Shown in pieces: positions 1-18,270 of a stretch of DNA of 42,922 bases (positions are counted from its first letter, which is position 1; every line of letters starts with the position of its first letter). A program made the translations under genes and the position numbers. The stretch covers positions 1-42,922 of IMG/VR virus record IMGVR_UViG_3300021067_000004. One strand, 5' to 3'. A model generated the notes under the pieces. The model was not told the origin of the DNA. It saw only the letters and a program-made list of their open reading frames with translations, and ran no database searches. This DNA comes from a virus.

Positions 1-127
1 ATGGGCATCCCAAGCCCGGCCGGTGAAAGCGTCCGTTCACAGAAGACGCGAGAGGACAAGGAGGCCGTGGCGCGCAAGGATCAGGAGCTGTCCGAGTCGG
101 AAGGCAAAGCCGAGGCAGCGTGGCAGA
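1..127. repeat. Terminal overlap copy A (circular contig join)
   Basis: Identical base for base to the last 127 bases of the window. A coding frame continues through the join without interruption. 127 is a common largest k-mer in short-read assembly, so this is most likely an assembly overlap of a circular sequence, not a biological terminal repeat. Confidence 0.95.
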
Positions 128-489
128 CGGTCATAGAGTTCGGGAAGTCCGTCGGTCTCCAGCGCGATCCGAAGACTGGAGCATTGATTGTTCCGGACGG
201 CTTCAAGGGCATGCAAGCGCCGGGGCTGCAAGAGGTGGTCCCTGGACTGCTGGGCAAAGGCAAGCCCATCGAGGCGGCCCGTCGCGTGGCGATGGATGGG
301 CTGGTCCGCCTCCAGACGGGCGCTGCGATATCCGAGTCGGAACTAAAGTTCTACACCGATGTACTCGGTGACGAGGACGCGACACGCGCTGAGATCGCGA
401 CCAACCTGAACGCGCTCGAAGCGCTCATTCAGTCCCGCCGCAAACAGAGCCGCGTCGGCGCCCCTGGCGCCCCGAGCTCGTGGAAGTGA
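1..489 (+). CDS. 3' part of virion protein with lysozyme-like domain (continues from 41263)
   Basis: This is the C-terminal 162 residues of the protein that begins at 41263; the ATG at base 1 is an internal Met of that frame, not a start. Joined across the circle the product is 673 aa. This part is charged and helical-looking with no recognised domain, and ends in a Ser/Pro/Gly/Ala tail. The stop is followed after one base by the ATG of the next, larger internal virion protein, so the two are surely cotranscribed. Function is inferred from the N-terminal part and from position among virion genes. Confidence 0.85.
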   Translation: MGIPSPAGESVRSQKTREDKEAVARKDQELSESEGKAEAAWQTVIEFGKSVGLQRDPKTGALIVPDGFKGMQAPGLQEVVPGLLGKGKPIEAARRVAMDGLVRLQTGAAISESELKFYTDVLGDEDATRAEIATNLNALEALIQSRRKQSRVGAPGAPSSWK

Positions 490-490
490 A

Positions 491-3400
491 ATGCCCGTAT
501 TCGTAGACCCACGGTCCGGAGAGGTTTACTCCAACGTCCCCGACGAAGAGGCGGACCGCGCGCGGCGCGAGTTCGGGCTGGTCTCGCAGGAAGAGTACGA
601 CCACCAGCAGGCGGTAGAGAGCTCCGATGAGGGCTTTGGCTCGGCCGTCGCTGGTGGCTTCCAGCGCGGGCTGGGCATGATCGGAGACGCGCTCGAGGGC
701 TTCACGCCCCCCGCGGTCGGCAGCGACGCATTCGGCGCGGGCGGCCCGGCTCCGATGGGAGCGCCAGCGGCCGCTGTCCAGAGCGGCGAAGAGACATTCC
801 CGGGCGCCTACGACGAGCAGGCGCGGCTTCAGCGCGAGGCGCGGCCATTCGCCGCCGGGCTCGGGACGAGCCTTGCTGCGGCTCCGCTCGCCGCCATGGC
901 GGGGGCTGGCGCGGTCGCCGCCGCACCGGGGTTCGGTGCCGTCCTCGGGACGACCGCAGGCGGAATCGTCGCGGAGGCCGGCGTAGAAGCGGTCGCTCAG
1001 GAATACGACGACGCCTGGTTCGAGCAGCGGCCGTACGAGCTGAAGAACGTCGCCGCCAACACGCTCGCTTTCTCCGGCGTTGACTTCATGTTCCGAGGCG
1101 CGCTCAAGGGCATCGGCTCCGTGTTCGCAAAGGACCCCGTCAAGCCCGCCGGCGCCATCGGTGGGCGCAACGTCGTCAGCGAGGCGCAAGGCGCGGCGCG
1201 AGAGATGGTCGACCCAGTCGGCGGCGGAAGCGTGGGCGCAGCGCGCGCGGCTGACCTCGAGGACGAATTCACGCCGGCCATCTCTCAGATGTCCGATAGC
1301 GAGGCGGCGACCCTCGCTCGGGACGCGGACGACCACATATTCCTCGTGGCTCAGGATGCGTCCGAATCGTTCACGCGCCTCAACAACGGGCTCTCCGATG
1401 ACCTCGGCAACCAGCTGAAATACGAGGATATTGGGACGTACGCCCAGGAGTGGGAGGCCCCTCTGCTGGAGCGCCAAGCGAAGTGGGCAACGACCGTGTC
1501 AGAGGGCGCCGAGGACGGCATCGCGGCGATCCAGCAGAGCAAGTACTCCCTCGGCAATTTCGGCAAGCGAGCCGAGGAGACGCTCGACACGTTCACCCGG
1601 CGCATCGCCGTCGAGCCCGACGCCGGCAATCGCATGGTCGCGCTCGACGAGTTCAAGCGGCGGCTCGACCGGCTCAGCAAGAGCATCGACGCGAGCGACC
1701 TGGACGCCATCGCGAAGGAAGAGCTGAAGTCTGCCATCATCCCGACGCGGGAGGGGCTACGGAAAGGGCTCACGGACCCCAAGCTATTCGGTGGCGCAGC
1801 TGACCTACAGCGCTCGCTCAACGTCCCCTGGACGACCATGCTCGAAAGCTGGAGCAAGGTTCAGAACACGCTCACCGAGGCGACCGGTCACATCAAGTTC
1901 GATACGACCGGCGCCGGGCGCATCACGCGCGAGTCGACCGTCGACCGCATGTTCGCGATGGCCCAAAAGGACCCGCGCCGCAACCAGGAATTCGGTAAGC
2001 ATCTTGGGCAGGTGTTCGACGGGCTGAACGGGCTCATCGAGGCTCGGCAGGCGCACGGCATCGCCCGCAAAGACGGTCTCGATGCGCTCGCTACCGACGT
2101 CCGCAATCTGATGGAGGATTGGAACCTCGCGACCACCATCGGTGTCGCAAAGAACCGGGTTGACGCCATGAAGCGCGACCCGCGCAAGTGGGCCACGCTG
2201 GCCGCCAACATCGGCGAGCGGTTGCCTATCGTCGGTCAGCCCATTCAGCTGGCGCGTGGGCTCAGCGCCGCTTTCACAGACCTGAACCTCCCAAAGAACA
2301 GCGCGCTCGGAAAGGTGTGGGACCGGGCCTATCGGCGCTATGCGATGAATCCCGTGTACAGCGACCCGGCCATCATTCGGAACTATCCCGACTGGATCGC
2401 CGAATCGCTCCGCTCGCGAGGTGGGCGCATTCCGCCGGGCGGCTCCGGCATGATGGGTGGCACGAGTGTGCCGTCGGCTCCCGTTGCCGCCGCCAACGAT
2501 GTCATGACCGGCGTGGCCCAACCTAGCCCCGCCTACCAGCGCGCTAAGGCCATCATTGAAAAGCGCGGCGAGGCCGGCTCGGTGCAGCTCAGCGGCAGCG
2601 TGCGCGGCAAGCCCGGCTTCGCTGACCTGCCAGAGGGCGCTCAGTCGTCCCTGTCGCACGCCGCCATGGGTGCGCCGCAGACGGCGTTCACCAAGGAGGC
2701 CAAGGATGAGGTCCGTGCCGGGCTCAAGGCCAACCGCATCATCTCCGAGTCGGACCGGAAGCTCGCTCTCGACTTCGTTGACTCGATTCCCGACGAGCTC
2801 CAGTGGAATGGCAAGCTCGCGCGCAAGTACGGTCGCCTCGTTGGGCGCCGCGGCGAGGGCGGCGAATTCCGCGACGAGTTGATGCGCCACGTCGAGGGAC
2901 GCCTGATACCCGACGATCCGATGATGCAGCGCCTCTACCACGACCGGAAGATGCGCGACGCATTCCTCCGCGGCGTCGACCAGGGCGCGAGCGAGCTGGA
3001 GAAGACAGGTAGGCCGCTCGACTCCAGCGCGTTCCGGTCGATCAAGGAGACGCTCGCCAAGCACGACTCTCAGAGCGGCTCCGTGAATATCGGTGTCGGC
3101 CCAAACTTCTCCCTCGCCGACGTGGCCAAGAGCCCGATGGGCGTGGTCGCTGGCGCAGGCGGCGCTGGGCTCGCCATCAATGCCGCCGTCCAGGCGCGCG
3201 CAGCCGAGCCGCCGCAGTCGCCAGAGGTGGCCTACCGTGACGCGCTCCTGGAGATCGACCGCGCCGGGCAACAGCAGGTCAAGACGCTGGCCTCGGAGGC
3301 GCTCCGAAAGAAGCCTTCGCGGGGCAAAGACCGGGACCCGCTCGTGCTGTTCGCTGGAAAGCGCAAGATCCAGGATGCCGTCGAGGAGGCTCGCGAGCGA

Positions 3401-4021
3401 CTGGACGAGATCGCCGCCGACCCGACCACGCTGCTCCAGCAGGTCGGTGGCAGCTCCGGCGAGCTCGGTCGCACCCATCCTTCCGTGTACATGGCCGTCA
3501 CCGAGAAAGCCGCACAGGTCGCGGCGTACCTCCAGGCGGTCATCCCGCAACGCACGGTCACGACACTGCTTGACCCCGTGGGAGCAGCTCCGTCATTCGA
3601 CCGGGCATGGGACTTCGCTGCACGGTTCGTCGGGGCCACCCAGCCGCGCGTCGCGCTCCGGGAGATCGTCCGCGGGGCGGCGCCGCCCGAGATGCTCGAG
3701 GCAGTTCAGCAGAACTGGCCCGAGCTATGGGACGGATTCCGCGCTGAAACACTCGGCCAGATCCAGCGCATGCACATGTCCGGCCGTCACATCCCGTCCG
3801 AAAAGCTCCGCCGACTGGATTCGCTGCTCGGTCTGCGAGGGCAACTCGACCCGACGGCGGCGCCCGAGTTCACGGCTCACATGCTCGCGGCTCAGGACGC
3901 AGAGCTGGCGCGTCGGCAGGAAGGCGGGCAAGCTAGTGGCGCGGTCCCCGGTGGCGGCTCGGGCGCGGCGTCGTTCAGGACGCGGCTCGACGCGATCAAC
4001 AACGAAAGGCAGATGGGATGA
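491..4021 (+). CDS. Large internal virion / DNA-ejection protein (predicted)
   Basis: 1176 aa. Begins one base after the preceding stop, with GGAAG just upstream as a weak ribosome site. A long Ala/Gly-rich hydrophobic stretch (about residues 120-160) and a second near 880-900 could enter or cross membrane; the remainder is largely charged and helical-looking. Size, two hydrophobic segments, and position at the end of the virion operon after a lysozyme-domain protein are what is expected of the big core/ejection protein of short-tailed phages, which leaves the head and helps the genome cross the envelope. I see no transglycosylase signature here. The role is inferred from size and context, not from a catalytic motif. 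A large structural protein of another kind is the alternative. Confidence 0.6.
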   Translation: MPVFVDPRSGEVYSNVPDEEADRARREFGLVSQEEYDHQQAVESSDEGFGSAVAGGFQRGLGMIGDALEGFTPPAVGSDAFGAGGPAPMGAPAAAVQSGEETFPGAYDEQARLQREARPFAAGLGTSLAAAPLAAMAGAGAVAAAPGFGAVLGTTAGGIVAEAGVEAVAQEYDDAWFEQRPYELKNVAANTLAFSGVDFMFRGALKGIGSVFAKDPVKPAGAIGGRNVVSEAQGAAREMVDPVGGGSVGAARAADLEDEFTPAISQMSDSEAATLARDADDHIFLVAQDASESFTRLNNGLSDDLGNQLKYEDIGTYAQEWEAPLLERQAKWATTVSEGAEDGIAAIQQSKYSLGNFGKRAEETLDTFTRRIAVEPDAGNRMVALDEFKRRLDRLSKSIDASDLDAIAKEELKSAIIPTREGLRKGLTDPKLFGGAADLQRSLNVPWTTMLESWSKVQNTLTEATGHIKFDTTGAGRITRESTVDRMFAMAQKDPRRNQEFGKHLGQVFDGLNGLIEARQAHGIARKDGLDALATDVRNLMEDWNLATTIGVAKNRVDAMKRDPRKWATLAANIGERLPIVGQPIQLARGLSAAFTDLNLPKNSALGKVWDRAYRRYAMNPVYSDPAIIRNYPDWIAESLRSRGGRIPPGGSGMMGGTSVPSAPVAAANDVMTGVAQPSPAYQRAKAIIEKRGEAGSVQLSGSVRGKPGFADLPEGAQSSLSHAAMGAPQTAFTKEAKDEVRAGLKANRIISESDRKLALDFVDSIPDELQWNGKLARKYGRLVGRRGEGGEFRDELMRHVEGRLIPDDPMMQRLYHDRKMRDAFLRGVDQGASELEKTGRPLDSSAFRSIKETLAKHDSQSGSVNIGVGPNFSLADVAKSPMGVVAGAGGAGLAINAAVQARAAEPPQSPEVAYRDALLEIDRAGQQQVKTLASEALRKKPSRGKDRDPLVLFAGKRKIQDAVEEARERLDEIAADPTTLLQQVGGSSGELGRTHPSVYMAVTEKAAQVAAYLQAVIPQRTVTTLLDPVGAAPSFDRAWDFAARFVGATQPRVALREIVRGAAPPEMLEAVQQNWPELWDGFRAETLGQIQRMHMSGRHIPSEKLRRLDSLLGLRGQLDPTAAPEFTAHMLAAQDAELARRQEGGQASGAVPGGGSGAASFRTRLDAINNERQMG

Positions 4022-4317
4022 GCGTTGCAGCAGGAGACGGGCGCATCAATGTGCGCAGGAACGTCACGGCAGGGTCACTGCTGGGCGTGGGTGGCGCGCC
4101 CAAGAGACGGGCGAGCACGCTGCTCATCATGAACGAGTCAATCGACACGCCAGGCACGGCGGTAGTGTCTGGAGATGACGGCGTCGAATACACGGTCGAT
4201 GTACCAGTGTCGTCCACGGTGGAGATGTGCGGCGACTTCGAAACGCTCGGCGCACTGACCGGCGTCTCGGTCATCGCAGGCTGGGTCGACGATGGGAGCG
4301 TGCAGCGCAATGGCTGA
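4018..4317 (+). CDS. Hypothetical small protein, end of virion operon
   Basis: 99 aa. Its ATG overlaps the previous stop (ATGA), implying translational coupling to the large internal virion protein. The sequence looks beta-rich (short Val/Thr/Gly-rich strands, for example TVEMCGDFETLGALTGVSVIAGWV) and has no signal peptide or membrane segment. Not recognised. It could be a small virion or assembly component given the operon. Confidence 0.6.
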   Translation: MSVAAGDGRINVRRNVTAGSLLGVGGAPKRRASTLLIMNESIDTPGTAVVSGDDGVEYTVDVPVSSTVEMCGDFETLGALTGVSVIAGWVDDGSVQRNG

Positions 4318-4855
4318 CCAGAAGAAGCCGGCGCAACCCGCGCCAGTCGAACAGCTCATCGCTCGGTTCCAACTCGAGACCGACCGCGCTCTGGCCGCAA
4401 TCCGCGAGGACATGGGCCGCGCAATCGGCGACCTGGCTCGCAAGGTGGCCACCTTGGACGACCGCTTCACCGAGATGCGGGACGCCGCGTCGCGCCAGGC
4501 CGTCGCGCTCGACTCCGGGTTGCACCACACCCGTAAGGCCGTCGAAGAGGTCAACGAGGCCATGAAGGTCGCCGCACGGAGCGCACAGGAGGCCCGCGAT
4601 TCGGCGCTGGTCTACGAGAAGCTGAAGGAGTCGCAACCCGACTTCACGCGGCAGGTTCAGGCGCTCGAGGTGCGACTTGCCGCCGTCGTCGACTCGAACG
4701 CGCATCTTCAGGAACAGGTCACCAGGCTCGTTGGGCAGGTCGAAGATTTCGAGGTCGTTGCCGACTCGTTCGACGAGGTCAGCGGCGAAGTGCGAGGGCT
4801 CGACCTGCAGGTCAAGAAGCTCGACACGCTGACCAGGACGAGCAGGTCGCTCTAG
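4310..4855 (+). CDS. Coiled-coil protein, end of virion operon
   Basis: 181 aa from the ATG at 4310, which overlaps the preceding gene by 8 bases; GGGAG 12-16 bases upstream is a possible ribosome site. An in-frame ATG at 4292 would add six residues but has no better ribosome site. Nearly the whole protein is heptad-like helix rich in Ala, Glu, Arg, Leu and Val, with no Cys and no membrane segment. It is the last plus-strand gene before the convergent terminase and the permuted tRNA-like element. Function is not recognised; fibrous virion component or assembly factor are both possible. Confidence 0.65.
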   Translation: MADQKKPAQPAPVEQLIARFQLETDRALAAIREDMGRAIGDLARKVATLDDRFTEMRDAASRQAVALDSGLHHTRKAVEEVNEAMKVAARSAQEARDSALVYEKLKESQPDFTRQVQALEVRLAAVVDSNAHLQEQVTRLVGQVEDFEVVADSFDEVSGEVRGLDLQVKKLDTLTRTSRSL

Positions 4856-4870
4856 GATCAGCGTTAGAAC

Positions 4871-4942
4871 GTCCGGTATGCTACCAAGCCGCACCCTACG
4901 CTGAGTGACAGCGTAGCTGGATTCGAACCAGCGCCTCCGGAC
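4871..4942 (-). tRNA. Circularly permuted tRNA-like cloverleaf, possible tRNA-Arg(UCU)
   Basis: Read on the minus strand from 4942 down. GTCCGG (4942-4937, 3' strand of the anticodon stem); AGGC (variable region, ends in the conserved C48); GCTGG / TTCGAAT / CCAGC (4932-4916), a perfect T arm with canonical loop; TACGCTG (4915-4909, 3' acceptor strand); linker TCACT; CAGCGTA (4903-4897, 5' acceptor strand, 7 of 7 pairs); GG; D arm GTGC / GGCTTGGTA / GCAT (4894-4878) with the conserved GG; then CCGGAC (4876-4871), pairing 6 of 6 with the first GTCCGG. The D stem has a G-T wobble that would be an A-C mismatch on the plus strand, and the T loop is canonical only on the minus strand, so minus is the RNA strand. 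Continuing past 4871 the loop can be read as GTTCTAA, which gives U33, anticodon UCU and A37 A38, as in bacterial tRNA-Arg(UCU). CCA is not encoded and U8 is not present. Pairing is seen directly; function as a tRNA is inference. Confidence 0.6.
4897..4915. terminator. Hairpin between convergent genes (acceptor arm of the tRNA-like element)
   Basis: TACGCTG, loop AGTGA, CAGCGTA: seven perfect pairs, eight counting the flanking C-G. It lies midway between the stop of the plus-strand gene (4855) and the stop of the minus-strand terminase (4962-4960), where a bidirectional terminator would be expected. There is no T-run on either side, so intrinsic termination is doubtful. The same hairpin is the closed acceptor stem of the cloverleaf. 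Confidence 0.3.
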
Positions 4943-4959
4943 ACGTCGACACAGATAGC

Positions 4960-6519
4960 TCAGTTACGCTTCCGCCGCAACATGCGCTTGCCGGCCCTGA
5001 CCGCGGCGGCCTTTTCCAGGCGCTCCTGATACTCCGCGAACCCCGCCTCTCCCGGCTTCGGGCGCGGCGGCTTGGCGGCGACGAAGAGCTGGCTCAGCTG
5101 GTTTACGGCGCCGAGCACGGCGTCCGCCACGTCATCCACGAAGCCTTCCCGGTGACTCTGTCGATCCTCGCTCCAGGGCAGGGCGCTCCACTCGCTCAGC
5201 ACGTCGGCGCAGTGCTCGGGTCGAATCTGAAGCGAGCCCGTCTTCATGAGCGCGCGCAGATACTCGATGCGCGGCTTCTTCCGCGGCTTGCCGAGCGCCT
5301 GCACGATGACGCCGCGATTCGCCATGTTCTGCACGAATCGGTCGCCTTCGCCTCCGCAGTCCGCGTAGATCTCGCCCGTGCGCCACGCCGCGCGCAGTGC
5401 GGCCAGCTCCACAGCGATCTCGTCATCGTCCAACTCGGGCACGTAGTAGGCGCGCAACAGGACAATCTCCCGGCCCCTGAGCGACTTGGCGGCCACCGCG
5501 AAGCCGTTCCCGTCGCCCCAGCCCGGGTCAACCACGACGACGATGCGCCACGGCTGGTCACGCGGTAGCTCCCATCCGGGCGGCAACATGTTGCGCTCCG
5601 CCGGAAGGTACACGAGCGAGTCTGTGTCCTTGACCCAGTCCGCCAGATACTCGCGGCGAAACTCAGCCGAGAGTTTCGACAGGATCGGTGCCCATGCCGG
5701 ATCGTCGATCGGCGTGTCCTTCAGCGCGACCAGCTGCTCGACGATGGCATCAGCCGGCGTGTCATCGAGGATGTAGTTGCCCTCGTTCAGCTCTTCACGC
5801 AGGTAGCCCGCTGCATCGATATACGGATTGTCGAGCGCGGTCCACCGGTGCGACGACCAAGCGTTCACCTCTCGCCCGGTGTGGTCGCGACCAGTGCACT
5901 TCTCGTAGTAGAAGCCGCGCGGGTCGAGACCTGGCGAGCCGCACAGAATGAGCTGGCCGCCGCCGAGATGGTGAGTATCCATGAACTGCGGCGTGATGAC
6001 GCTGGAGAGCAGATAGCGGAATTGCTGGTCGTGGCCCCCAAACGACCCGCACTCGTCGACCGCTGCCCGGCGCAGCCCGCCCGCGATGCCGCGAAGCTTT
6101 TCCACCTGGGCCCGGTCCTTCGCGGCCTTCAGCAGGATGCGGTAGCCGTTCGGCATCGTCGCAACCAGGTCGAGCCCGTTCATGTTCATTCCGAGCTGGT
6201 AGCGCTCATTGAACAGCGTCAGCGTCGGCCACAGGATGCTCTTGGCGTGCTCCTTCGTCAGCGCGACGAACAGCGACGAGTGCCCTGGCCACCGGTGATA
6301 CTCCTCGAGCAACCACGCCGCGAGCGCATGCGAACCGCCACCGCGGCGGCCTTTTGGCCAGGTTTTCCGCGGAGATGGGTCCTCAAGTGCCGCTCTCTGC
6401 TTCGCGTGCAACCCATCCAGAATCCGCCACCACGGCGAGTCGGGGTCGTCCTCTACCAGGCTCTCCTGGATCAGGTCCTCGAGCAGGGTCGAATCGTCAT
6501 CCGAGATGAGAGCGGGCAA
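4960..6519 (-). CDS. terL: Terminase large subunit (packaging ATPase-nuclease)
   Basis: 519 aa. Motor domain: deviant Walker A at residues 56-64 (KGRRGGGSH) in which the usual Lys before Ser is Gly; Walker B AAVDE (152-156); coupling motif CGSP (193-196). C-terminal RNase H-like nuclease with acidic residues at D331 (VVDPGWGD), D387 (YADCGGEGD) and D462/D463/D466 (VDDVADA). It cuts and pumps DNA into proheads through the portal. A TTG at 6519 is the only plausible start, since a TAG closes the frame five codons upstream; the ribosome site is weak. It is alone on the minus strand, divergent from portal, and about 18 kb from the probable small subunit. The missing Lys may be replaced by Lys56 at the front of the loop, as in some phage terminases. 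Confidence 0.93.
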   Translation of the reverse strand: MPALISDDDSTLLEDLIQESLVEDDPDSPWWRILDGLHAKQRAALEDPSPRKTWPKGRRGGGSHALAAWLLEEYHRWPGHSSLFVALTKEHAKSILWPTLTLFNERYQLGMNMNGLDLVATMPNGYRILLKAAKDRAQVEKLRGIAGGLRRAAVDECGSFGGHDQQFRYLLSSVITPQFMDTHHLGGGQLILCGSPGLDPRGFYYEKCTGRDHTGREVNAWSSHRWTALDNPYIDAAGYLREELNEGNYILDDTPADAIVEQLVALKDTPIDDPAWAPILSKLSAEFRREYLADWVKDTDSLVYLPAERNMLPPGWELPRDQPWRIVVVVDPGWGDGNGFAVAAKSLRGREIVLLRAYYVPELDDDEIAVELAALRAAWRTGEIYADCGGEGDRFVQNMANRGVIVQALGKPRKKPRIEYLRALMKTGSLQIRPEHCADVLSEWSALPWSEDRQSHREGFVDDVADAVLGAVNQLSQLFVAAKPPRPKPGEAGFAEYQERLEKAAAVRAGKRMLRRKRN

Positions 6520-6520
6520 G

Positions 6521-6576
6521 CCTACGTCTTTCTAGCAGTGTCCTGGTTTGACGTAGGTTCTAGCACGGGGCAGACT
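6521..6576 (+). promoter_or_regulatory. Late promoter/operator element 1 (portal operon)
   Basis: Inverted repeat CCTACGTC (6521-6528) and GACGTAGG (6550-6557) separated by 21 nt. The right arm overlaps a -35 box TTGACG (6548-6553); 17 nt later CAGACT (6571-6576) is a weak -10. Portal starts at 6585. Close copies occur at 25238 and 34653. The left arm abuts the terminase start codon. Confidence 0.6.
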
Positions 6577-6584
6577 GTCATGAC

Positions 6585-8534
6585 ATGCCACCGCGTCTGG
6601 ATCATTGGGGCGACATCGAGGACGAGACTCTCGCCGGGCAAGCGCTGACCGCTACAGCTCGGAAACGGCTGAGCGCCATCTCCAAGCGCAAACAGCGTGC
6701 ATGCGAATGGCTGAGTCAGTACGAGGGTCTCGGCCTGAACCGGTTCGACGCCGGGGCATACGATGGCGCCGAGGATTACGACTTCATCGACACAGATGCC
6801 CAGGGCAACAAGAGCGAAGCGTATCGCCAGACTCACAACTACGGCGCTCGCGTCATGGATGCCATCGACGCGAAGATCTTCTCGCTCGAGCGCACCAAGA
6901 CGCAATTCGTTGTGAGCGACGGCGGCTGGGCCGTGAAGGCGGCCGCTGTGAAAGCGGGCCGCTTCGTTGAGGGCCAGATGGCTGAGCCGAGCGGCATCTT
7001 CAAGGATCTCTGGGAGAGCTGGCGGCATGGCGCGCGGCTGAGCACCATCGCCACCGGCGCGAGCATGATGTGGTTCTGGAGCGACCCCACCCAGGGAAAG
7101 ATCGTCACCGAGCTGGACGACTCGCTGAACACGTGGGTTGAGACAGGCGGTATGCCGTACGACGGGTACTCGTCGATCGGGCGCATTACGTATTGGGACC
7201 CGCGCAAGCTCGCGGCACGCTTCCCGAAGCATCGCGCGGATATCATGGCCGCCGCATCGGACCCGAAGCAGCTCACCCGATGGCGCGAGCTCTACTCCGA
7301 GGACGACGACGAAGAGGACAACGACGACTCGCTGCGTGTTCCGTTCATCCAGGGCTGGCGCATGCAGTGGGGCGACCCCGATAAGGGCGGCGTGCCCGGC
7401 GTCCAGATGTGTTGCATCCCGGGTCTCGTGCTCGACCGGCGCGACTACGAGAGTAGCGAACCGCCGTGTGTTCGCTTCTGCCCGATGCCGCAATTGGCTG
7501 GCGTGTGGGGCAGGACCATCTTCGAGCGATGCGTCGCGGCTGACCGTCGCTACAACGAAATCCTGAACAGCGTCGACAACGCCGAGCGGATCACGCCGAA
7601 GGGCGCGCTCGTGTTCGATCCCACATCCAGTGACGAGGAGCAACTGAAGGCCGTCAAGGATGTGATCCTGATTCCGCACACGGGACCGATGGATCGCGCG
7701 CCGCAATACACGGCGCCGCCGCCGTTTCACCCCGTCGTGCTCGACCTGCTGAAGCTCCACAAGGATGCCGTCTTTGACCTGCCGGGCATGAACGAGGCGC
7801 ATGCGACCATGGCTCTCGGAAAGGGTCTGAGCGGCGTCGCGATTCGCCTGCTGAAGCAGGAGGTCTACGAGATCTTCGCTCCGCTCGAAGACGAATTCAC
7901 CCGCTGCGTCGGGCCCGAGACCGCCAAGCAGATCATCCGTTGCGCCCGCGAGCTTCAGAAGGAAGGTGGATTCACTTCGCTCTGGAAAGGTGGCGGCGAA
8001 AAGGGCTGGCTTCAGGAGATTGGCGCGGACGTGTTCGACGTGCTGGAGAAGCACAAGTACCGCGTCGAGCCGCAAGCCGTGAGCGGGAGCGTCAACACGC
8101 TCGCGGACAACGTCGAGCTAGCCAAAGAGCTGGTGCAGATGGGCATCATCAGCGGCGAGGCGTACGCCAAGATTCTCCAGACGGGCTACGTCTTCGGTGC
8201 GACTGGCACACCGCTGAGCCAAGCTGAGGAGCAGTTCATCGAGCGGCAGATCGACGACTGGATGTATGCCGACCTGGAGACCGCGCGCCGCCGCTACATG
8301 GCGCCCGAGATCTGGATGGATAAGGACTACTCGCTGACCCTGAAGGTCGGGGCCGCGTATCTACAGGCTCGCCTCGAGATGATCGACGATATGGATGACC
8401 CAGAGGTCACCGCGCGTCTCGGGCTATTCAAGACGTTCCTCTCTCAGCTCACGGCCAACGCCAAAGAGCGAGAGATGATGGCCGCGCAGGCGCAGGCAGC
8501 TGCTCAGGGACAGCAGCCGATGCCTACCGCTTAA
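6585..8534 (+). CDS. Portal protein
   Basis: 649 aa. Forms the dodecameric ring at one head vertex through which DNA is packaged and ejected, and nucleates head assembly. Assignment rests on size, an all-helical C-terminal half, the Gln/Ala-rich C-terminal tail, and order: divergent from terminase, directly followed by scaffold. Portal-like segments include the N-terminal helical region with NYGARVMDAIDAKIF (about residues 85-100) and the region around residues 390-420 (LLKLHKDAVFDLPGMNEA), resembling the crown/stem helices of podoviral portals. An acidic loop (EDDDEEDNDD) lies near residue 240. The ATG at 6585 has only a weak GGGG 14 bases upstream; the leader from the predicted promoter would be very short. 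Confidence 0.85.
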   Translation: MPPRLDHWGDIEDETLAGQALTATARKRLSAISKRKQRACEWLSQYEGLGLNRFDAGAYDGAEDYDFIDTDAQGNKSEAYRQTHNYGARVMDAIDAKIFSLERTKTQFVVSDGGWAVKAAAVKAGRFVEGQMAEPSGIFKDLWESWRHGARLSTIATGASMMWFWSDPTQGKIVTELDDSLNTWVETGGMPYDGYSSIGRITYWDPRKLAARFPKHRADIMAAASDPKQLTRWRELYSEDDDEEDNDDSLRVPFIQGWRMQWGDPDKGGVPGVQMCCIPGLVLDRRDYESSEPPCVRFCPMPQLAGVWGRTIFERCVAADRRYNEILNSVDNAERITPKGALVFDPTSSDEEQLKAVKDVILIPHTGPMDRAPQYTAPPPFHPVVLDLLKLHKDAVFDLPGMNEAHATMALGKGLSGVAIRLLKQEVYEIFAPLEDEFTRCVGPETAKQIIRCARELQKEGGFTSLWKGGGEKGWLQEIGADVFDVLEKHKYRVEPQAVSGSVNTLADNVELAKELVQMGIISGEAYAKILQTGYVFGATGTPLSQAEEQFIERQIDDWMYADLETARRRYMAPEIWMDKDYSLTLKVGAAYLQARLEMIDDMDDPEVTARLGLFKTFLSQLTANAKEREMMAAQAQAAAQGQQPMPTA

Positions 8535-8544
8535 CAGGAGACCC

Positions 8545-9699
8545 ATGGCAGACGAACAGACCGCGGCGCCGCCTCAATCGAGCGCGACGCCGTCAGACTC
8601 CGATGACTCAATCATCGGCGACATCCTCAAGGGCGCACCCGAAGAATCGCGCGGCGATGCCGACGGTGGCGATGACGCTGAAGGAGAGCAGACTGAGGAT
8701 CAGGCTGACGATGAGCACGAGTCGGATGATAGCACATCCGATGACGACGATGCTCCAGCCGATGAAACACCGGCGGAGGATGACGATTCTGCCCCCGACA
8801 ATGAGTCAGACTCCGCCGCGCTGAAGGCGGCACGTAAAGCGGCGGACGATGGTGACCTGGACACTGCGTTCAAGCTCGCGTTCGGCAAGAAGCCCGAGGA
8901 GCTGTTTCCGAACGACAAGCGCTGGACGCAGTGGCGCGCGGCCAACAACAAGCGCGATCGTGCGTTTCAGGCTCGCGAGCAGGAGCTGAATGCGCGAGAC
9001 CAGCAGGGTCAGCAGTGGGTCACGACACAGCGCCAGCAGATCTCGGGCATCATCGACCAGCTGCGCCCGTACGAGGAGATTCACCAGGCGCGTGTAGCCT
9101 TCAAACAATCGGGCGACCCTGAGTTGCTCAAGGCCATCATCGAGAAGACGGCGGAGATGCCGTACGACGAGGCGCAGAAGATCATCCTCACGAAGAGCCG
9201 CCGGAGCCCGGGCGAGCGCGCGCTGGCTCAGCAAGTCCAGACTCTGATGCAGAAGCTGGAGGAAGCTGAGCGAAAGAAGACAGAAGAGGCTCAGCAGCTC
9301 ACCCAGCATCAGCAATACCAGGCCGACCTGGGACTCATCACGAGCACGCTCAGGGGCGAAGTGACGAAGGTCCCGCGCTTCGCGGAGCGAGTCTACCAGG
9401 TGCTGGTCAAGACTCGGACCCCGACTGGGCTCAGCATGAGCGTCGAAGAGGCTGGGCAGCGCGTGCTCGCGTCCGAGCGTCGAAAGCTCGCCAAGCATCC
9501 GCTCATCAAAAAGCCGGCGCCAAAGCCCGATGTCAGCGAGGCTGCGCGCAAGCTAGCATCTGCCAAGAAGGCCAAGCAGTCGCCGCCGGTGCTCCGACGT
9601 GACAGCCGCGGCAACGGCGCAGTCGACGAGAGAAACGAAAGCACAGACGACATCCTGGCCGACATGTTCAAGAACAGCAATCGCCGGAGGGCGCAATGA
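8545..9699 (+). CDS. Capsid scaffolding protein
   Basis: 384 aa, with AGGAG before the ATG. The first 90 residues are extremely acidic and disordered (runs of Asp, Glu, Ser); the middle is long charged helix with coiled-coil character (about 130-270); the C-terminus is basic (KKAKQSPPVLRRDSRG), as expected for a scaffold that binds capsid protein electrostatically. It sits between portal and the co-chaperonin, the usual place for a scaffold. Unusually, the major capsid protein does not follow; it lies about 16 kb away, beyond the early region. Identification is by composition and gene order. Confidence 0.8.
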   Translation: MADEQTAAPPQSSATPSDSDDSIIGDILKGAPEESRGDADGGDDAEGEQTEDQADDEHESDDSTSDDDDAPADETPAEDDDSAPDNESDSAALKAARKAADDGDLDTAFKLAFGKKPEELFPNDKRWTQWRAANNKRDRAFQAREQELNARDQQGQQWVTTQRQQISGIIDQLRPYEEIHQARVAFKQSGDPELLKAIIEKTAEMPYDEAQKIILTKSRRSPGERALAQQVQTLMQKLEEAERKKTEEAQQLTQHQQYQADLGLITSTLRGEVTKVPRFAERVYQVLVKTRTPTGLSMSVEEAGQRVLASERRKLAKHPLIKKPAPKPDVSEAARKLASAKKAKQSPPVLRRDSRGNGAVDERNESTDDILADMFKNSNRRRAQ

Positions 9700-10409
9700 G
9701 CAATCTGCTGGAGCTGGTTACCCGCGACACTCCGGAGCGCGCGCCCGAGGCGCTGGAGGGGCTCCGTGACCGCAACGTGTTCGACTTCGTGCAGTGCGTC
9801 CCGTGGAAGCAGGAGCGCCGCGCGATCGCCCTGAACGGCATCCTGGCGCCAACGATGTACGAGATCACGGGCAGCGACTCGAGCCGCGATAAGCCATTCA
9901 TTGGCGAAGTGCTGAGCACTGGCCCCGGGCTGGCCCCGGAGCGCATATGCGTTCTGCCGGGCGACGTGTTCCTGTGCACGCTCCACAACATCAGCTACCG
10001 GCTCACGGAGCGCGGTCGCAAAACCTACATGGTTCGCAACGGCGTCATCTACGCCAAGCTCGACAAGGGGACGATGAACTTGAAACCGCTTCAGGACCTG
10101 ATTCTGGTGAAACGAAACGAGGAGCGCGCGCTCGCCCACCAGAGCGGCGGCCCTATCTGGCTCCCGACCGACGACGTGACCACCGACGACGTGCGCTCTC
10201 CAGCCATCACGGCGGCCTACGGCGAAGTGGTCTCCGTTGGCCCTGGGCGCTACCGTGACGGCAAGTGGAGCGAGCCGCCGTGCCGCGTCGGTGACCTGGT
10301 ACTCTACGATGCCAGCTACTCGACGTTGCCTGTCACCATCCGCGGCGAGAATTTCACACTCGTGCCCACGCCGCAGATCGTGAAGATAGCGGACGAGGCG
10401 GCGCCCTAA
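9696..10409 (+). CDS. Tandem GroES/Cpn10-like co-chaperonin (two domains in one chain)
   Basis: 237 aa, overlapping the scaffold stop by 4 bases. The C-terminal half is plainly Cpn10-like: LKPLQDLILVKR (129-140), mobile-loop motif SGGPIWLP (150-157), GEVVSVGPGR (176-185), CRVGDLVLY (196-204). The N-terminal half repeats the pattern: mobile-loop-like NGILAP (47-52), GEVLSTGPG (70-78), VLPGDVFL (86-93). Co-chaperonins cap GroEL, and phages such as T4 encode one to fold their capsid protein. Placement beside scaffold suggests capsid folding with host GroEL. A fused double Cpn10 is known from chloroplast Cpn20-type proteins and is unusual for a phage. That both mobile loops contact the same GroEL ring is inference. 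Confidence 0.85.
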   Translation: MSNLLELVTRDTPERAPEALEGLRDRNVFDFVQCVPWKQERRAIALNGILAPTMYEITGSDSSRDKPFIGEVLSTGPGLAPERICVLPGDVFLCTLHNISYRLTERGRKTYMVRNGVIYAKLDKGTMNLKPLQDLILVKRNEERALAHQSGGPIWLPTDDVTTDDVRSPAITAAYGEVVSVGPGRYRDGKWSEPPCRVGDLVLYDASYSTLPVTIRGENFTLVPTPQIVKIADEAAP

Positions 10410-10702
10410 AACCGCGGAGGCTTGCGCCAGTCGAACCGGGTCAACAGCATCGAGTCGCGCCAGCCGCGGTCGGTGACGATGCTGGTGAGCCGATCCTGGC
10501 GCAGGCTGAGCTTGCGCTGCTCGTCGGCGAGCGCCCCGAATTGGTCGACGACAGCGTCATCCCGGCGCGCCAGGGAGACCAGGTGTCGCTGCACGGTACG
10601 CATCGTCCGTCGCTGGCTCACGGCGTCCCATACCAGTCCGATAACCGCTACCCCTAGCGACGCCAGGGCCACTGCTTCAGGCGACATACTGAAGCGTACC
10701 AC
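10406..10702 (-). CDS. Small membrane-anchored coiled-coil protein
   Basis: 98 aa, convergent with and overlapping the co-chaperonin by 4 bases. One N-terminal membrane segment (about residues 9-28, AVALASLGVAVIGLVWDAV) followed by a charged helix (30-80) likely to lie in the cytoplasm. No catalytic residues seen. It lies next to the ribbon-helix-helix regulator on the same strand, so it may be expressed in the lysogen. Superinfection exclusion, holin or spanin-like roles are all possible; nothing in the sequence decides. Confidence 0.6.
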   Translation of the reverse strand: MVRFSMSPEAVALASLGVAVIGLVWDAVSQRRTMRTVQRHLVSLARRDDAVVDQFGALADEQRKLSLRQDRLTSIVTDRGWRDSMLLTRFDWRKPPRF

Positions 10703-10711
10703 ATCGGCCGC

Positions 10712-10942
10712 CTAAGCGCTGCTCGCTTTCGGGGCAGTGCGCGACTTGCGTGGCTTGCGTGGCGGTCGGAGTCCAGCATCGACCAGCCGTTGCCGGTCCT
10801 CCGTGATGAGCCGCCGCACGTAGTCGCTGAAGCTCTCAGCGTGATACTCGGCGAGCGCCTTGGCGCAGTCGTCCTCTTCCTCTGTCACCCGTATCTGCCA
10901 GAGGACGGTGCTCGCCTGCGTGGTGCCTGGTCTGCGGTTCAT
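10712..10942 (-). CDS. Ribbon-helix-helix transcriptional regulator
   Basis: 76 aa. WQIRVTEEEDD (about 15-25) fits the DNA-contacting strand, followed by two helices (CAKALAEYHAES and FSDYVRRLITED), the layout of Arc/CopG-type repressors; the tail is basic (RPPRKPRKSR). It is divergent from the integrase operon and is the only obvious DNA-binding regulator near int, with no CI-like repressor in sight. The motif GTCATTACAAT lies 9 bases before its start codon, suggesting autoregulation. AAGGCG just before the ATG is a fair ribosome site. It likely governs the lysogeny choice (inference). Confidence 0.7.
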   Translation of the reverse strand: MNRRPGTTQASTVLWQIRVTEEEDDCAKALAEYHAESFSDYVRRLITEDRQRLVDAGLRPPRKPRKSRTAPKASSA

Positions 10943-11090
10943 CGCCTTGCGTCATTACAATGGCAGGACGTTTGAGTCCAGCGAGCCATCCCACAGCGGC
11001 CTACTGTATTTACAGATTGTGTCGAAACTGTGTTGCACATGTGCATCATGGGCGCATAATCGTAATTACAATCACAGGGAGGGTGGTACT
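10943..11090. promoter_or_regulatory. Divergent control region between regulator and integrase operon
   Basis: About 148 bases, more AT-rich than the surroundings. Contains GTCATTACAAT (10951-10961), the palindrome CTGTATTTACAG with arms CTGTA/TACAG (11004-11015), the perfect 12-bp palindrome TGCACATGTGCA (11034-11045) over the predicted -35, and the variant GTAATTACAAT (11062-11072). Several operators packed between divergent regulator and integrase genes are typical of a lysis-lysogeny switch. Confidence 0.6.
11033..11060 (+). promoter_or_regulatory. Predicted early promoter for the integrase/replication operon
   Basis: TTGCAC (11033-11038), 16 nt, CATAAT (11055-11060; 5 of 6 to consensus). 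The -35 is embedded in a 12-bp palindrome, so a repressor could block it. A second candidate -10, TACAAT (11067-11072), lies just downstream within the regulator-like motif. Confidence 0.45.
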
Positions 11091-11246
11091 GTGGCGGACG
11101 ATAGCCTGATCAGAGAGGCTCTCGCGGAGTCGGAGCGTCAGCGGCGGAGGCGCCGTGCGCGCCGGGTGCGCTGGACGGATTTGGACAAGGAGCTTGCGGC
11201 TCAAGCCCTGGCTGAGATCGCGGGTGAAAAGGGGTCTGATGAGTAG
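11091..11246 (+). CDS. Small basic protein at head of integrase operon
   Basis: 51 aa from GTG at 11091, preceded by a strong GGGAGG. Contains a run rich in Arg (RQRRRRRARRVRW, about residues 17-29) followed by an acidic helix. It overlaps the integrase start by 8 bases. Size, charge and position suit an excisionase or small DNA-binding accessory factor, but no family signature is visible. Confidence 0.55.
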   Translation: MADDSLIREALAESERQRRRRRARRVRWTDLDKELAAQALAEIAGEKGSDE

Positions 11247-12525
11247 ATGGGAATTGCCGGCCGAGCTTACATTGAGTCGCCTCGCGGAAAAGTGGCTTGA
11301 GGACATCGCCTCGGTGATCGACCCGGAAACGGCGTCGCTGTACCGGCTGCACATGAGGACGCACCTGTGCCCCCACTTTGGCGACGATCCGCATGCCGTC
11401 CGGACGGCTTCGATTGCCGAGTATGGACGGTCACGGCTGAGAACGGTTAAGCGCGCGACACTGCAAAAGGAACGGTCGACGCTGCGTGGCTTTTTGGCAT
11501 GGTGCGAAGAGCAGGGGTACCTGGTCGACGCGCCCGAATTCCCGAAGCTCCCGCGCAAGGCTATCGGGACGGCGTTCGCTGTGCGCCGCCGGGGCCAAGC
11601 TACCGACATCTCCCTGGAGGAATGCGAGGCGCTCATTGCGGCGCTCCCGCGCTGGACGCGCCCGCGCACCGACCAGCCATCGTTCCCGGTCCGGGCCCGG
11701 TTCGTGGTCGCATTCGAGACCGCTCTGCGCCCGGCTACCCTCGACGCGCTCTCGGTCCCGGAGCACTACTCCCGCGGCTCGAGCACGCTGACCATCACGG
11801 ACGACATCGACAAGGCTCGGTTCGGCCGAGTCCTGCCGCTGACGCCCGCGGCGCGCGCCGCGCTCGAGAGCGTCTGTCGGCCCGGGATCACCGGCCTGAT
11901 CTTCGGGAGCCATGACTATCGGTGGCAGCTCAGGAAGGCCGCCAAAGCGGTTGGGCTCCCGGCGGCGAAGCTCCGTACCTTCTGCGCCTACGACCTCCGC
12001 CACGCCCGGCTGACTGAGCTCGCCGAGGGTGGGAACCTGACCGGGACGGCCTACGTGGCAGGGCACCGCCGGGTCACTACCACGGCGCTGTACGTCAAGC
12101 CGGGGCTCCGCGCCGGCGAGCGCGCGCTCGAACAGGCCGAGCGGTCGCGCGCTAGCAGCGGGTCTTTTCCAGTGGGATTGCTTAAGTCTCCGAAAGTTCA
12201 AGGATTGTGCGAAGGAGAGGACTCGAACCTCCACGGCCTTTCGGCCGCTAGCACCTCAATCCACCGGAAGGCTGCGCACAACCTAGACGCGCATGCGCTG
12301 CGCAGCGAGGCCGTAGCCATCCTCGCGGCCGCCGCCTCTGGAGAGAGCGTCGATGAAGACCGCGTCAGGGCATTGGCGCTCGGCGCCATCGCGATGACGC
12401 CCGTCGGCAGGCTCTCGCTGGCTGTCCTCGAGGGCGGCGACTTCGCTCCGCGCCGCACCATCGAGCTTGCCCGGTTGCTCGCCGAGTCCGCGCCTCGCGC
12501 GCGCCGCGAGGAGGGTCCTCGATGA
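11239..12525 (+). CDS. int: Tyrosine-recombinase integrase
   Basis: 428 aa. Start ATG 11239 follows GGGG and overlaps the upstream gene. N-terminal SAM-like core-binding domain (about 10-100), catalytic domain from about 125 with R164 (FETALRPATLD), Y251/R254 (YDLRHAR), H276 (VAGHRRV) and nucleophile Y285 (TTALYVK). It recombines attP with a host tRNA gene. The frame then runs through the tRNA-derived attP core (residues about 324-341, including EGEDSNLHG, the familiar antisense-tRNA translation) and continues about 87 residues more, ending in an ATGA overlap with the replication gene. That tail would be lost on integration. Whether it has a function is unknown. Confidence 0.93.
   Translation: MSRWELPAELTLSRLAEKWLEDIASVIDPETASLYRLHMRTHLCPHFGDDPHAVRTASIAEYGRSRLRTVKRATLQKERSTLRGFLAWCEEQGYLVDAPEFPKLPRKAIGTAFAVRRRGQATDISLEECEALIAALPRWTRPRTDQPSFPVRARFVVAFETALRPATLDALSVPEHYSRGSSTLTITDDIDKARFGRVLPLTPAARAALESVCRPGITGLIFGSHDYRWQLRKAAKAVGLPAAKLRTFCAYDLRHARLTELAEGGNLTGTAYVAGHRRVTTTALYVKPGLRAGERALEQAERSRASSGSFPVGLLKSPKVQGLCEGEDSNLHGLSAASTSIHRKAAHNLDAHALRSEAVAILAAAASGESVDEDRVRALALGAIAMTPVGRLSLAVLEGGDFAPRRTIELARLLAESAPRARREEGPR
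12208..12259 (-). other. attP: attP core: 3' half of a host tRNA-Leu(GAG)
   Basis: On the minus strand from 12259: anticodon loop TTGAGGT (GAG), GCTAG (3' anticodon strand), long variable arm with stem CGGCC/GGCCG and GAAA loop, T arm GGAGG / TTCGAGT / CCTCT, acceptor 3' strand CCTTCGC, discriminator A. Upstream of the loop the sequence does not pair with GCTAG, so only the half from the anticodon loop onward is present, as expected for a tyrosine-integrase attachment core copied from a tRNA. It lies inside the 3' part of the integrase gene. Confidence 0.85.
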
Positions 12526-13427
12526 GGGGGAGGATCCGGACCGTCAAGCCGGAATTGTTCAAGAGCGAGAAGCTCTGGGACCTGCAGGTGCAGACCGGGC
12601 TTCCCCTCACTCAGGCGTTCATCGGCCTGTTCTGTTACGCCGATCGGGAGGGTCGATTCGAGTGGCGCCCCCGCGCGCTGAAGAGCGACGTGCTCCCGTA
12701 CTGGGATGGCGACTTTGAGGAGGTGCTCAAGGCACTTGCATCGAAGATGTACATCGTACGCTACACAGTCGCCGGTAAGGACTACGGATTTATCCGTGAC
12801 TGGCGCCTGCACCAGGCCATCGGGAACAAGGAGGTTCCGAGCGAGATACCTTCTCCCTCGGACCACGCCAAGGCTTCCTTGGAAGCTTCCGAGGAAAACT
12901 TGGAAGCTCCCGAGCGGAAGGGAAGGGAAGGGAAGGGAAGGGAAGGGGAATGGGAAGGGGGTATGGGGGACTTCGCTCCGCCTTCGGCTCCGCTCGACTC
13001 CCACGATGCAACGCCGTTGCACCGTGACGAGGATGGTGATTGCCGGACCGCAGTAGGGGCTAGAATCGCCCCGGAGCCATCGGTGGCACCCAAGCCACGT
13101 CCAAAGAGCAAGCGGCCCTCCACGAGCCTGCCAGACGACTTCGTCCCGAACGACAGCGCCCGCTACCTGGCGCGTACACTGTCAGTGGATTTGGAGCTGG
13201 AGTTACCAGCGTTCGTCGATCACCACCGAGCGCGGGGTTCGACCTTCAGCGACTGGCAGGCGGCGATGCGCACCTGGATCCGGAACAGCGCCAAGTGGGC
13301 CGTGCCGAAGAGCGGGCGGCGCGCGTCGGAGCAGGACGAGCGTCTGAGCGAGCAGGCGAAGCGCGTAGCCATGCTGCGCGCGCAAGAGGCTGAGGACGAG
13401 CGGCGAGCCTCAGGAGGTGGGACGTGA
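12522..13427 (+). CDS. Replication initiator / replisome organiser
   Basis: 301 aa, ATGA overlap with integrase. The N-terminal domain matches phage replisome organisers (RIRTVKPELFKSEKLWDL, then FIGLFCYADREGRFEW and YGFIRDWRLHQ, residues 3-100). A low-complexity linker (about 105-190) is encoded by a repeat-rich, probably origin, segment. The C-terminal domain (about 200-265; LPAFVDHHRARGSTFSDW, AAMRTWIRNSAKW) resembles the DnaT/primosomal C-terminal fold that recruits helicase. It is followed by a helicase-loader gene, the lambda O-P arrangement. It likely binds the origin inside its own gene and starts replication. Confidence 0.82.
   Translation: MRGRIRTVKPELFKSEKLWDLQVQTGLPLTQAFIGLFCYADREGRFEWRPRALKSDVLPYWDGDFEEVLKALASKMYIVRYTVAGKDYGFIRDWRLHQAIGNKEVPSEIPSPSDHAKASLEASEENLEAPERKGREGKGREGEWEGGMGDFAPPSAPLDSHDATPLHRDEDGDCRTAVGARIAPEPSVAPKPRPKSKRPSTSLPDDFVPNDSARYLARTLSVDLELELPAFVDHHRARGSTFSDWQAAMRTWIRNSAKWAVPKSGRRASEQDERLSEQAKRVAMLRAQEAEDERRASGGGT
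12878..12915 (+). repeat. Iteron-like direct repeats (probable origin part)
   Basis: Two near-identical 17-mers: CTTGGAAGCTTCCGAGG (12878-12894) and CTTGGAAGCTCCCGAGC (12899-12915), starts 21 bases apart (two helical turns). The first contains the palindrome GGAAGCTTCC. They encode the initiator's linker, as iterons do in lambda O. Confidence 0.5.
12916..12973 (+). repeat. GGGAA-rich polypurine tract, G-quadruplex-capable (probable origin part)
   Basis: After the iterons comes a tract of repeated GGGAA/GGAAG units ending in longer G-runs: essentially all purine on the plus strand, with at least seven runs of three or more G. In protein it is the Lys/Arg/Gly/Glu-rich linker (ERKGREGKGREGEWEGG). 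Such asymmetric purine tracts can unwind, form triplex or G-quadruplex; an origin role is inferred. Confidence 0.5.
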
Positions 13428-13918
13428 AGAAGTCCGACGCAGCCGAGCTCGTGATGCTCCTGCTCGGCGCCTACCCGCACGCCAAGGTGCATTCGCGCAC
13501 GAGCCAGGTCTACGAGACGATGCTGGCCGACCTGGACGTGGAGAGCGCTCGCGCTGCCGTGCAGCGTCTCATCACGACGAGCAAGTTCATGCCGACGGTC
13601 GCTGAGGTTCGAGCCGCGGCGGCTGATCTGGAGCGCGGCCCGGTGCGGAGCGGCGCCGATGCGTGGCTCGATGTGCTGGCGCAGATTCGGAGCGAGGGCT
13701 ACTGCGGCGCTCCGCGGTTCGATGATGCGATCGTGACGGCGCTGGTCGAGCGGTGGGGCTGGAGCAGGCTATGCCTAGAGGGCTCTCTCGAGGCGGACCG
13801 CGCGCGTTTCATCGAGGCATACGACTCGCTCGCTAAGCAGGCACGTGACCGTGAAGTGAGCGGGCTCGCATTGCCATCGGCGCCAGCGAGCAAGCGTCTC
13901 ACGAAGGGGGCAGCGTGA
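13424..13918 (+). CDS. Helicase loader-like replication protein
   Basis: 164 aa, GTG start at 13424 with AGGAGG seven bases upstream, overlapping the initiator stop. The N-terminal half has the pattern of the loader/inhibitor family first described for phage SPP1 G39P: LLLGAYPHAK, YETMLADLD, AVQRLITTSKFMPTVAEVR (residues 8-65). The C-terminal half contains a Trp-rich helix region (ALVERWGWSRLC). It should deliver the host replicative helicase to the origin opened by the upstream initiator. No ATPase motif is present, so it is not a DnaC-type AAA+ loader. Confidence 0.72.
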   Translation: MKKSDAAELVMLLLGAYPHAKVHSRTSQVYETMLADLDVESARAAVQRLITTSKFMPTVAEVRAAAADLERGPVRSGADAWLDVLAQIRSEGYCGAPRFDDAIVTALVERWGWSRLCLEGSLEADRARFIEAYDSLAKQARDREVSGLALPSAPASKRLTKGAA

Positions 13919-14199
13919 CTTTCGCGAATCGACTGATGGCAGACCCGGATGCACTTGCGCGGTCTCTCGCGAGACGTCACAACTTGGTCTGTAATGACGG
14001 TTCAGTCGTCTGCTGGAATTGCAGGCGTGAATCAGCGCTGATGCCGTCTCTGCATTGCGGCGCGTGCCTCGGGGAAACATGGCGCAGGCTCGGAATCATC
14101 GAGCCACGATGCGAGCAGCGAGAGCAGACGGAAGACGACAAGCGCCTGATGGCGCCATTAACAGGAGCAGCAGAAGAACATGAGCAAAGCAACGAATAA
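13915..14199 (+). CDS. Small zinc-ribbon protein
   Basis: 94 aa from GTG 13915 (GTGA overlap with the loader gene). Four Cys in two pairs, CWNC (residues 33-36) and CGAC (48-51), should hold one zinc. The rest is charged; the C-terminus is acidic. Not assigned to a family. A TGTAATGAC half-site (13990-13998) lies inside it, in frame with coding, and may be coincidental. Confidence 0.65.
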   Translation: MTFANRLMADPDALARSLARRHNLVCNDGSVVCWNCRRESALMPSLHCGACLGETWRRLGIIEPRCEQREQTEDDKRLMAPLTGAAEEHEQSNE

Positions 14200-14461
14200 G
14201 ACGGTTCTGGTCACCACCGCGCATCGCGGAGTCTTCTGGGGGCGTATCGAATCTAAGCGCGACAAGGGCCGGACCTTGGTTCTGTCGGGCGCACGAAATG
14301 CCATCTACTGGGCCACGACCAAAGGATTTGTCGAGCTGGCGCAGGTGGGCCCGAACAAGTCGAGCAAGATTGGCATGGCAGCTACGCGCATCACGTTGCA
14401 CGACGTGACGAGCGTCACCGAGTGCACCGAAGCCGCTGCGAGGGCTTGGGAGGCCGCGTGA
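14180..14461 (+). CDS. Conserved phage hypothetical protein (DUF6948-like)
   Basis: 93 aa, start ATG overlapping the previous gene by 20 bases. The pattern VLVTTAHRGVFWG, then ARNAIYWATTKGF and GPNKSSKIGMAA, ending in TLHDVTSVTECTEAAARAWE, is a beta-rich domain I recall as common in phage early operons and of unknown function. No catalytic residues are evident. The TGA overlaps the GTG of the next gene. Confidence 0.65.
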   Translation: MSKATNKTVLVTTAHRGVFWGRIESKRDKGRTLVLSGARNAIYWATTKGFVELAQVGPNKSSKIGMAATRITLHDVTSVTECTEAAARAWEAA

Positions 14462-14859
14462 AGCCAAGAACGCTTCGTGTGGTCACTGTCGATGACATCG
14501 TACGCGGTGGAGCGTGCCTGGAAGGAACCTTAGCCTGGAGGGACGCAAAGGCGCCGCTATGCACCGCGATCAGTGTGGATGAAGCACTGGGCCTGGCGAG
14601 CGCGGAAGAGGCGCAGTATGTCGCCATGGCCTCGGGGCGAGCAGGCAACGGCGACGGCGACGGCAACGGCGACGGCAACGGCTACGGCTACGGCAACGGC
14701 TACGGCTACGGCTGCGGCTACGGCGACGGCTACGGCGACGGCGACGGCAACGGCTACGGCTACGGCTGCGGCAACGGCGACGGCAACGGCGACGGCGACG
14801 GCAACGGCGACGGCTACGGCTACGGCAACGGCTACGGCAACGGCTACGGCTACGGCTGA
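14458..14859 (+). CDS. Protein with long Gly-(Asn/Asp/Tyr) repeat tail
   Basis: 133 aa from GTG 14458 (GTGA overlap). The N-terminal 62 residues form a compact-looking domain (TLRVVTVDDIV, WRDAKAPLCTAISVDEALGLA) of unknown function. The remaining 71 residues are 35 Gly-X dipeptides plus a final Gly, where X is Asn, Asp or Tyr and twice Cys. It is uniformly coded GGC-NAC (TGC for Cys). The tail is probably disordered or stacking, glycine-rich, able to bind nucleic acid or phase-separate; these are guesses. The same operon carries a second low-complexity repeat gene at 21493. Confidence 0.7.
   Translation: MKPRTLRVVTVDDIVRGGACLEGTLAWRDAKAPLCTAISVDEALGLASAEEAQYVAMASGRAGNGDGDGNGDGNGYGYGNGYGYGCGYGDGYGDGDGNGYGYGCGNGDGNGDGDGNGDGYGYGNGYGNGYGYG
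14644..14856 (+). repeat. Hexanucleotide GGC-NAC tandem repeat
   Basis: 35 six-base units GGC-NAC with N = A, G or T (never C), two units GGC-TGC, then a final GGC. Only one base per unit varies. It is in frame and ends at the stop codon. Expansion by slippage would keep the frame. Confidence 0.9.
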
Positions 14860-14913
14860 ACATCGAACATGCGGGCGTCGCTCGAGCCGCGCGGCGCCCG
14901 CCGAAAGGAACCA

Positions 14914-15111
14914 ATGTCAGAACTGAAACCAGGATGGGCCGACAAGATGCCCAAGACGATTCAAGAGGAGCAACAGCAGCGCGAGGAGATGGGCTGGAAG
15001 CCGCGCAAGGCGTGGAGATTGAATGGCGACCTGCAACAGGCATCGAGGTTACGCGGCGCGCATGCGCCAAAGCGACCCCTGCCCAAGCTTGAGTTTCCGG
15101 AGGACGAATGA
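14914..15111 (+). CDS. Small hydrophilic hypothetical protein
   Basis: 65 aa from ATG 14914, preceded by GAAAGGA at good spacing. Rich in Lys, Glu, Gln, Arg and Trp; no domain recognised. Its stop overlaps the MazG-like gene start (ATGA). An upstream ATG at 14869 in frame is less likely because it lacks a ribosome site. Confidence 0.55.
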   Translation: MSELKPGWADKMPKTIQEEQQQREEMGWKPRKAWRLNGDLQQASRLRGAHAPKRPLPKLEFPEDE

Positions 15112-18002: not shown

Positions 18003-18014
18003 GAAGTTCTGGAC

Positions 18015-18035: not shown

Positions 18036-18057
18036 ATCATGAGTGGAGGCAGGGACG

Positions 18058-18258: not shown

Positions 18259-18270
18259 ACTGGAGTGGAG

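Follow-up and report, generated by a model that had tools for sequence, protein, structure and literature searches.

Y RNAs are defined by Ro60, and their bacterial form, YrlA (RF02553), combines a tRNA-like domain with a basal stem. In YrlA, DusA and TruB modify the tRNA-like domain, to which PNPase also binds, and Ro60 binds the basal stem (PMC8394870); the domain has also been suggested to be a competitive inhibitor of an anticodon nuclease (PMC7790460). Homologues of Ro60 occur in ca. 5% of bacterial genomes (PMC4726728), and Y RNAs in mycobacteriophages have been reported before (Chen 2014, as cited in PMC12282133). What we state on YrlA is based on the cited reviews and papers together with the Rfam model. 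A permuted order, in which the 3' half is encoded before the 5' half, is likewise seen in the circularly permuted tRNA genes of Cyanidioschyzon and some archaea, which are spliced to real tRNAs with an anticodon, and permuted (two-piece) tmRNAs also carry a permuted tRNA-like part.

Here we describe an element of this layout in the IMG/VR virus record IMGVR_UViG_3300021067_000004, all 42,922 nucleotides of which were analysed (hereafter the window). The genome is complete: its ends share an exact repeat of 127 bp, and a second contig spans the junction. The element (72 nt, minus strand) is located between the stop codon of the terminase large subunit gene at 4960 and a convergent gene ending at 4855, a gap of 104 nt. 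It lies within the 3' UTR of the terminase gene, which is directly upstream on the same strand. Its order in the RNA is 3' half, UCACU linker and 5' half, which together make a complete permuted cloverleaf (Table 1). The first-pass annotation had described such inverted halves and a missing U8, and the minus-strand sequence bears out both, along with its pair counts for all four helices; tRNA positions 8 and 14 are G and G in the element, not U and A. Two outer G-U pairs extend the anticodon stem to 8 consecutive pairs, as opposed to 5 in tRNA, and thus no normal anticodon loop remains.

Table 1 Parts of the permuted tRNA-like element and its flanking genes in the window, in the 5' to 3' order of the RNA where applicable
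Feature	Position	Strand	Basis
Permuted tRNA-like domain, most likely YrlA-type	4871..4942	-	R1 55.6 bits; Rfam YrlA 21.9 bits
Anticodon-stem 3' strand GTCCGG, first in RNA	4942-4937	-	sequence
Variable AGGC	4936-4933	-	sequence
T arm GCTGG-TTCGAAT-CCAGC, 5/5 pairs	4932-4916	-	sequence
Acceptor 3' strand TACGCTG	4915-4909	-	sequence
Linker TCACT, 5 nt, caps acceptor hairpin	4908-4904	-	sequence
Acceptor 5' strand CAGCGTA, 7/7 with 3' strand	4903-4897	-	sequence
Acceptor hairpin TACGCTG-TCACT-CAGCGTA	4897..4915	-	sequence; same hairpin in computed fold
GG between acceptor 5' strand and D arm	4896-4895	-	sequence
D arm GTGC-GGCTTGGTA-GCAT, 4/4 pairs (one G-U), GG for elbow	4894-4878	-	sequence
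A between D arm and anticodon-stem 5' strand	4877	-	sequence
Anticodon-stem 5' strand CCGGAC, last in RNA	4876-4871	-	sequence; 6/6 with 4942-4937
Terminase large subunit	4960..6519	-	PHROG phrog_2, E 1e-28
Convergent coiled-coil gene, ends at other edge of element gap	4292..4855	+	ORF list; Pfam

Conventional searches pass over this element, as had been anticipated: over the whole window, ARAGORN in normal order calls neither a tRNA nor a tmRNA, and Rfam at gathering thresholds gives no match. ARAGORN does call a tRNA once the halves are put back into conventional order and joined through many different trial loops. A scan with strict criteria (consensus T loop, GG in the D loop, and 5 + 7 + at least 3 + at least 5 pairs) found a single match in the window and none in 300 simulated windows (first-order Markov, with the dinucleotide statistics of the window). 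When the loop sequences were left out, a structure-only scan gave 65 hits across the 300 simulated windows (approximately one per five), so pairing by itself is frequent by chance and it is the loop sequences that matter. The wider region is of ordinary stability (Vienna MFE, z -0.88), and its minimum free energy fold still includes the acceptor, T and D helices and part of the anticodon helix.

With permissive settings, the best Rfam family for the stretch is YrlA (21.9 bits, local match at 4870-4940), and in this sub-threshold alignment each of the four helices finds its counterpart, with the permuted order retained. The YrlA gathering score is 69 bits, and every phage locus that we scanned scores below it, including Ro60-linked phage elements scanned likewise (27.7 and 36.6 bits). 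In the YrlA domain a T arm is followed by a capped acceptor stem and then by a D arm, and the element shows the same succession; it resembles YrlA also in having no anticodon loop. It differs from YrlA in its Rfam score below threshold, in that neither a basal stem nor a motif for Ro60 binding can be recognised, and in belonging to a genome without a Ro60 gene. Compared with a permuted tmRNA, the element has no reading frame or tag, occupies a gap of only 104 nt and is not called as tmRNA by ARAGORN. We consider it most likely that the element is the tRNA-imitating domain of a bacterial Y RNA rather than a tRNA gene. This was in essence the fallback of the first-pass annotation (a structured RNA mimicking tRNA), which the YrlA helix order, the capped acceptor and the lack of an anticodon loop support.

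A covariance model (R1), made from eight other phage elements with the window excluded and with some rows hand-trimmed or padded, matches the window element from end to end (55.6 bits, E 2.5e-17). R1 also gives 30-58 bits at the junctions between ordinary tRNAs in tandem, so the score alone is no proof, and we rejected it as such; the window element has no neighbouring tRNAs. Covariation in the permuted structure across the eight rows of R1 is strong (0.968, compared with 0.248 for shuffles and 0.13-0.20 for slid pairings), a value inflated for rows selected by pairing, from which L137, L131 and L157 are exempt, having been found by sequence. A search in permuted order, as had been proposed for this and related phages, finds the element in the window but not in its terminase relatives G003 (68% identical terminase) and G032 (66%). 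Their lack of it implies that the element was probably gained in the window lineage, as judged from these genomes; it is identical in two near-identical contigs. A host search for a related terminase in GTDB genomes found none, nor did GenBank phages yield a near DNA match to window positions 1-20000 or a tblastn match to the window terminase. Elsewhere in the window, there are genes for a Cpn10 (GroES-like) protein (9696-10409), an N6/N4 DNA methylase (17094-18002) and an exonuclease and RecT protein (20000-21496), the last being one protein that matches both families.

The same layout was recovered at ca. 30 loci in other viral records, gathered by sequence patterns and a pairing scan and selected for having no overlapping ARAGORN tRNA call. 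Across this class, many acceptor stems end in a GNRA or UUCG tetraloop. One member, L131, is a complete 74-kb IMG/VR genome (90-bp end repeat) without Ro60, in which two tandem permuted units (663-803, minus strand) lie beside an HNH endonuclease gene and are only 3 nt apart, leaving no space for anticodon loops. Mycobacterium phage Rey (NC_041971.1) is another complete genome without Ro60 and carries a perfect permuted cloverleaf at 57990-58063 (73.4 bits); it parallels the window in this respect, but its element lies 3 nt behind tRNA-Asn within a tRNA array. The Erythrobacter phages R6L (L305) and ZS04 (L306) were considered as a second terminase-linked case and rejected, as they hold an ordinary tRNA-Met; in both, this unannotated normal-order gene, read by eye, occupies the terminase-portal interval at 1500-1575. 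In two further loci, L084 (6006-6217) and L010 (4000-4235), a region that bears tRNAs contains two permuted units each, the linkers being of the kind ACUCGC; if any of the elements are real permuted tRNAs, these would be the most likely ones.

Ro60 (TROVE) is encoded in 12 checked records with related elements, counting G024, which is under the Pfam cut-off, and the mycobacteriophages Sparky and Farewell, which are near-identical; the remaining Ro60-less records may be fragments. In Sparky and Farewell, an unannotated element (28912-28967 in Sparky) precedes the gene of an annotated Ro-like RNA-binding protein (gene 36 in Sparky), i.e., the domain of the window again occurs in a phage, with the difference that here a Ro60 gene follows. 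Nearly all Ro60-linked elements have an upstream GTTACTTCG-like motif in common (leave-one-out 6 to 19), and several have significant basal stems. Sparky (L157), although Ro60-linked, fails the leave-one-out motif test, which is hence not absolute. At ca. 1120-1190 of L157, the same phage also has flanks resembling a Ro60 site; they enclose no tRNA-like domain and probably belong to a second Y RNA. A second upstream flank, TACAGCAA with a GGATAC/GTATCC-type stem, is common to L061, L117, L112 and L032, where it surrounds permuted elements and possibly marks another Y RNA subclass.

The complete window genome has no TROVE domain by Pfam, and a profile built from Ro60 proteins of phages, which recovers a held-out positive with 252.6 bits, finds no Ro60 in it. 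The Ro60-linked cases raise the question of whether the window element is a divergent but otherwise ordinary Y RNA that tethers Ro60 to PNPase, with Ro60 supplied by the host. The YrlA domain itself, the 12 records with related elements that encode Ro60 and the share of bacteria with Ro60 homologues are all consistent with it. Against it, the motif common to nearly all of the Ro60-linked elements is no stronger than random at the window element (p 0.16), and the duplex between its flanks, where a basal stem would be expected, is no better than that of shuffled flanks (z +0.89). We hold a host-dependent Y RNA to be unlikely, at perhaps one chance in five.

Other explanations fare worse. Tandem copies of one tRNA would yield complementary halves if the 3' half of the first copy came to stand beside the 5' half of the second, and a decayed, functionless remnant of such a duplication would suit both the relatives without the element, which make its gain probably recent, and the fact that neither a promoter nor a terminator was found at the element. 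Yet every stem is intact, the halves end symmetrically at the anticodon stem, and unrelated phages have the same truncated layout, often with tetraloop caps for which tRNA junctions have no need, so that we regard decay as improbable. Several features speak against a true circularly permuted tRNA gene with its acceptor linker cut and its anticodon loop sealed by a host ligase such as RtcB, as the first-pass annotation had entertained. Permuted tRNA genes are known in algae and archaea (PMC3978253, PMC3218864) and the rejoined halves pass ARAGORN, but the window element gives no sign of being spliced to a tRNA with an anticodon. Its anticodon stem has 8 pairs, U8 and A14 are missing, the sequence does not fix an anticodon (reconstruction of the loop gave no 5-bp stem with a defined anticodon, and the loop letters are undefined), and members of the class have tetraloop caps or, in L131, no room for the loop. 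The phage genome, as the annotation had correctly noted, encodes no RtcB or other RNA-ligase family. We thus rejected a tRNA joined by ligation, which appears highly improbable.

An attachment site derived from the 3' half of a host tRNA was a further suggestion, and the genome does encode a tyrosine integrase. Such a site would carry no matching 5' half, however, and the 27-nt 3' half has an exact match in none of 84,980 species genomes, a set from which the true host may be absent. In relative G032, a separate tRNA-Lys-like 3' end adjoins the integrase, and the window holds a better candidate at ca. 12232 (minus strand), within the integrase gene, which leaves the element with hardly any claim to be an attP. 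This tRNA-Ser-like 3' end (GGAGGTTCGAGTCCTCTCCTTCGCA, ca. 12199-12262, minus strand, in the integrase gene 11155-12525) is probably the real attP and could identify the host. It is just as hard to credit that the structured 3' end of the terminase mRNA, acting as a terminator or stabiliser, resembles a tRNA by chance: the position right after the terminase stop codon would fit, but canonical T-loop and D-loop sequences are not required for such a role and the U-tract expected of a terminator between convergent genes was not found. A group I intron would find no space in the 104-nt gap.

Without a basal stem and without Ro60, the element is most readily accounted for as a free tRNA mimic whose targets would be host proteins that recognise tRNA. 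We postulate, with a probability of roughly 0.62, an orphan YrlA-type tRNA mimic that would bind such proteins as a tether or decoy. The RNA would either form the 3' end of the terminase transcript or be processed from it, and in the cell its T and D arms are predicted to form a tRNA elbow. As the acceptor stem is shut by a 5-nt loop, there is no CCA end and no charging, and as the 5' and 3' ends of the RNA exit via the anticodon stem, there is no anticodon. Host proteins that recognise the elbow, such as TruB, DusA or PNPase, could then bind and perhaps modify the mimic, and the phage might benefit from a tether or decoy for these elbow-binding proteins or for defence nucleases that target tRNA.

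More tentatively, and at odds clearly short of even, several phage lineages may carry Ro60-independent permuted mimics of this kind, missed by standard searches, that serve as decoys or tethers, also towards tRNA-cutting defences. ARAGORN in normal order and the Rfam gathering score for YrlA both miss permuted phage elements, which amounts to a blind spot in annotation. Since Rey grows on a laboratory host, a mimic without Ro60 can be put to the test. If the tRNA-like domain of Y RNAs persists in complete phage genomes that lack Ro60, this suggests that the mimic would have a use of its own.
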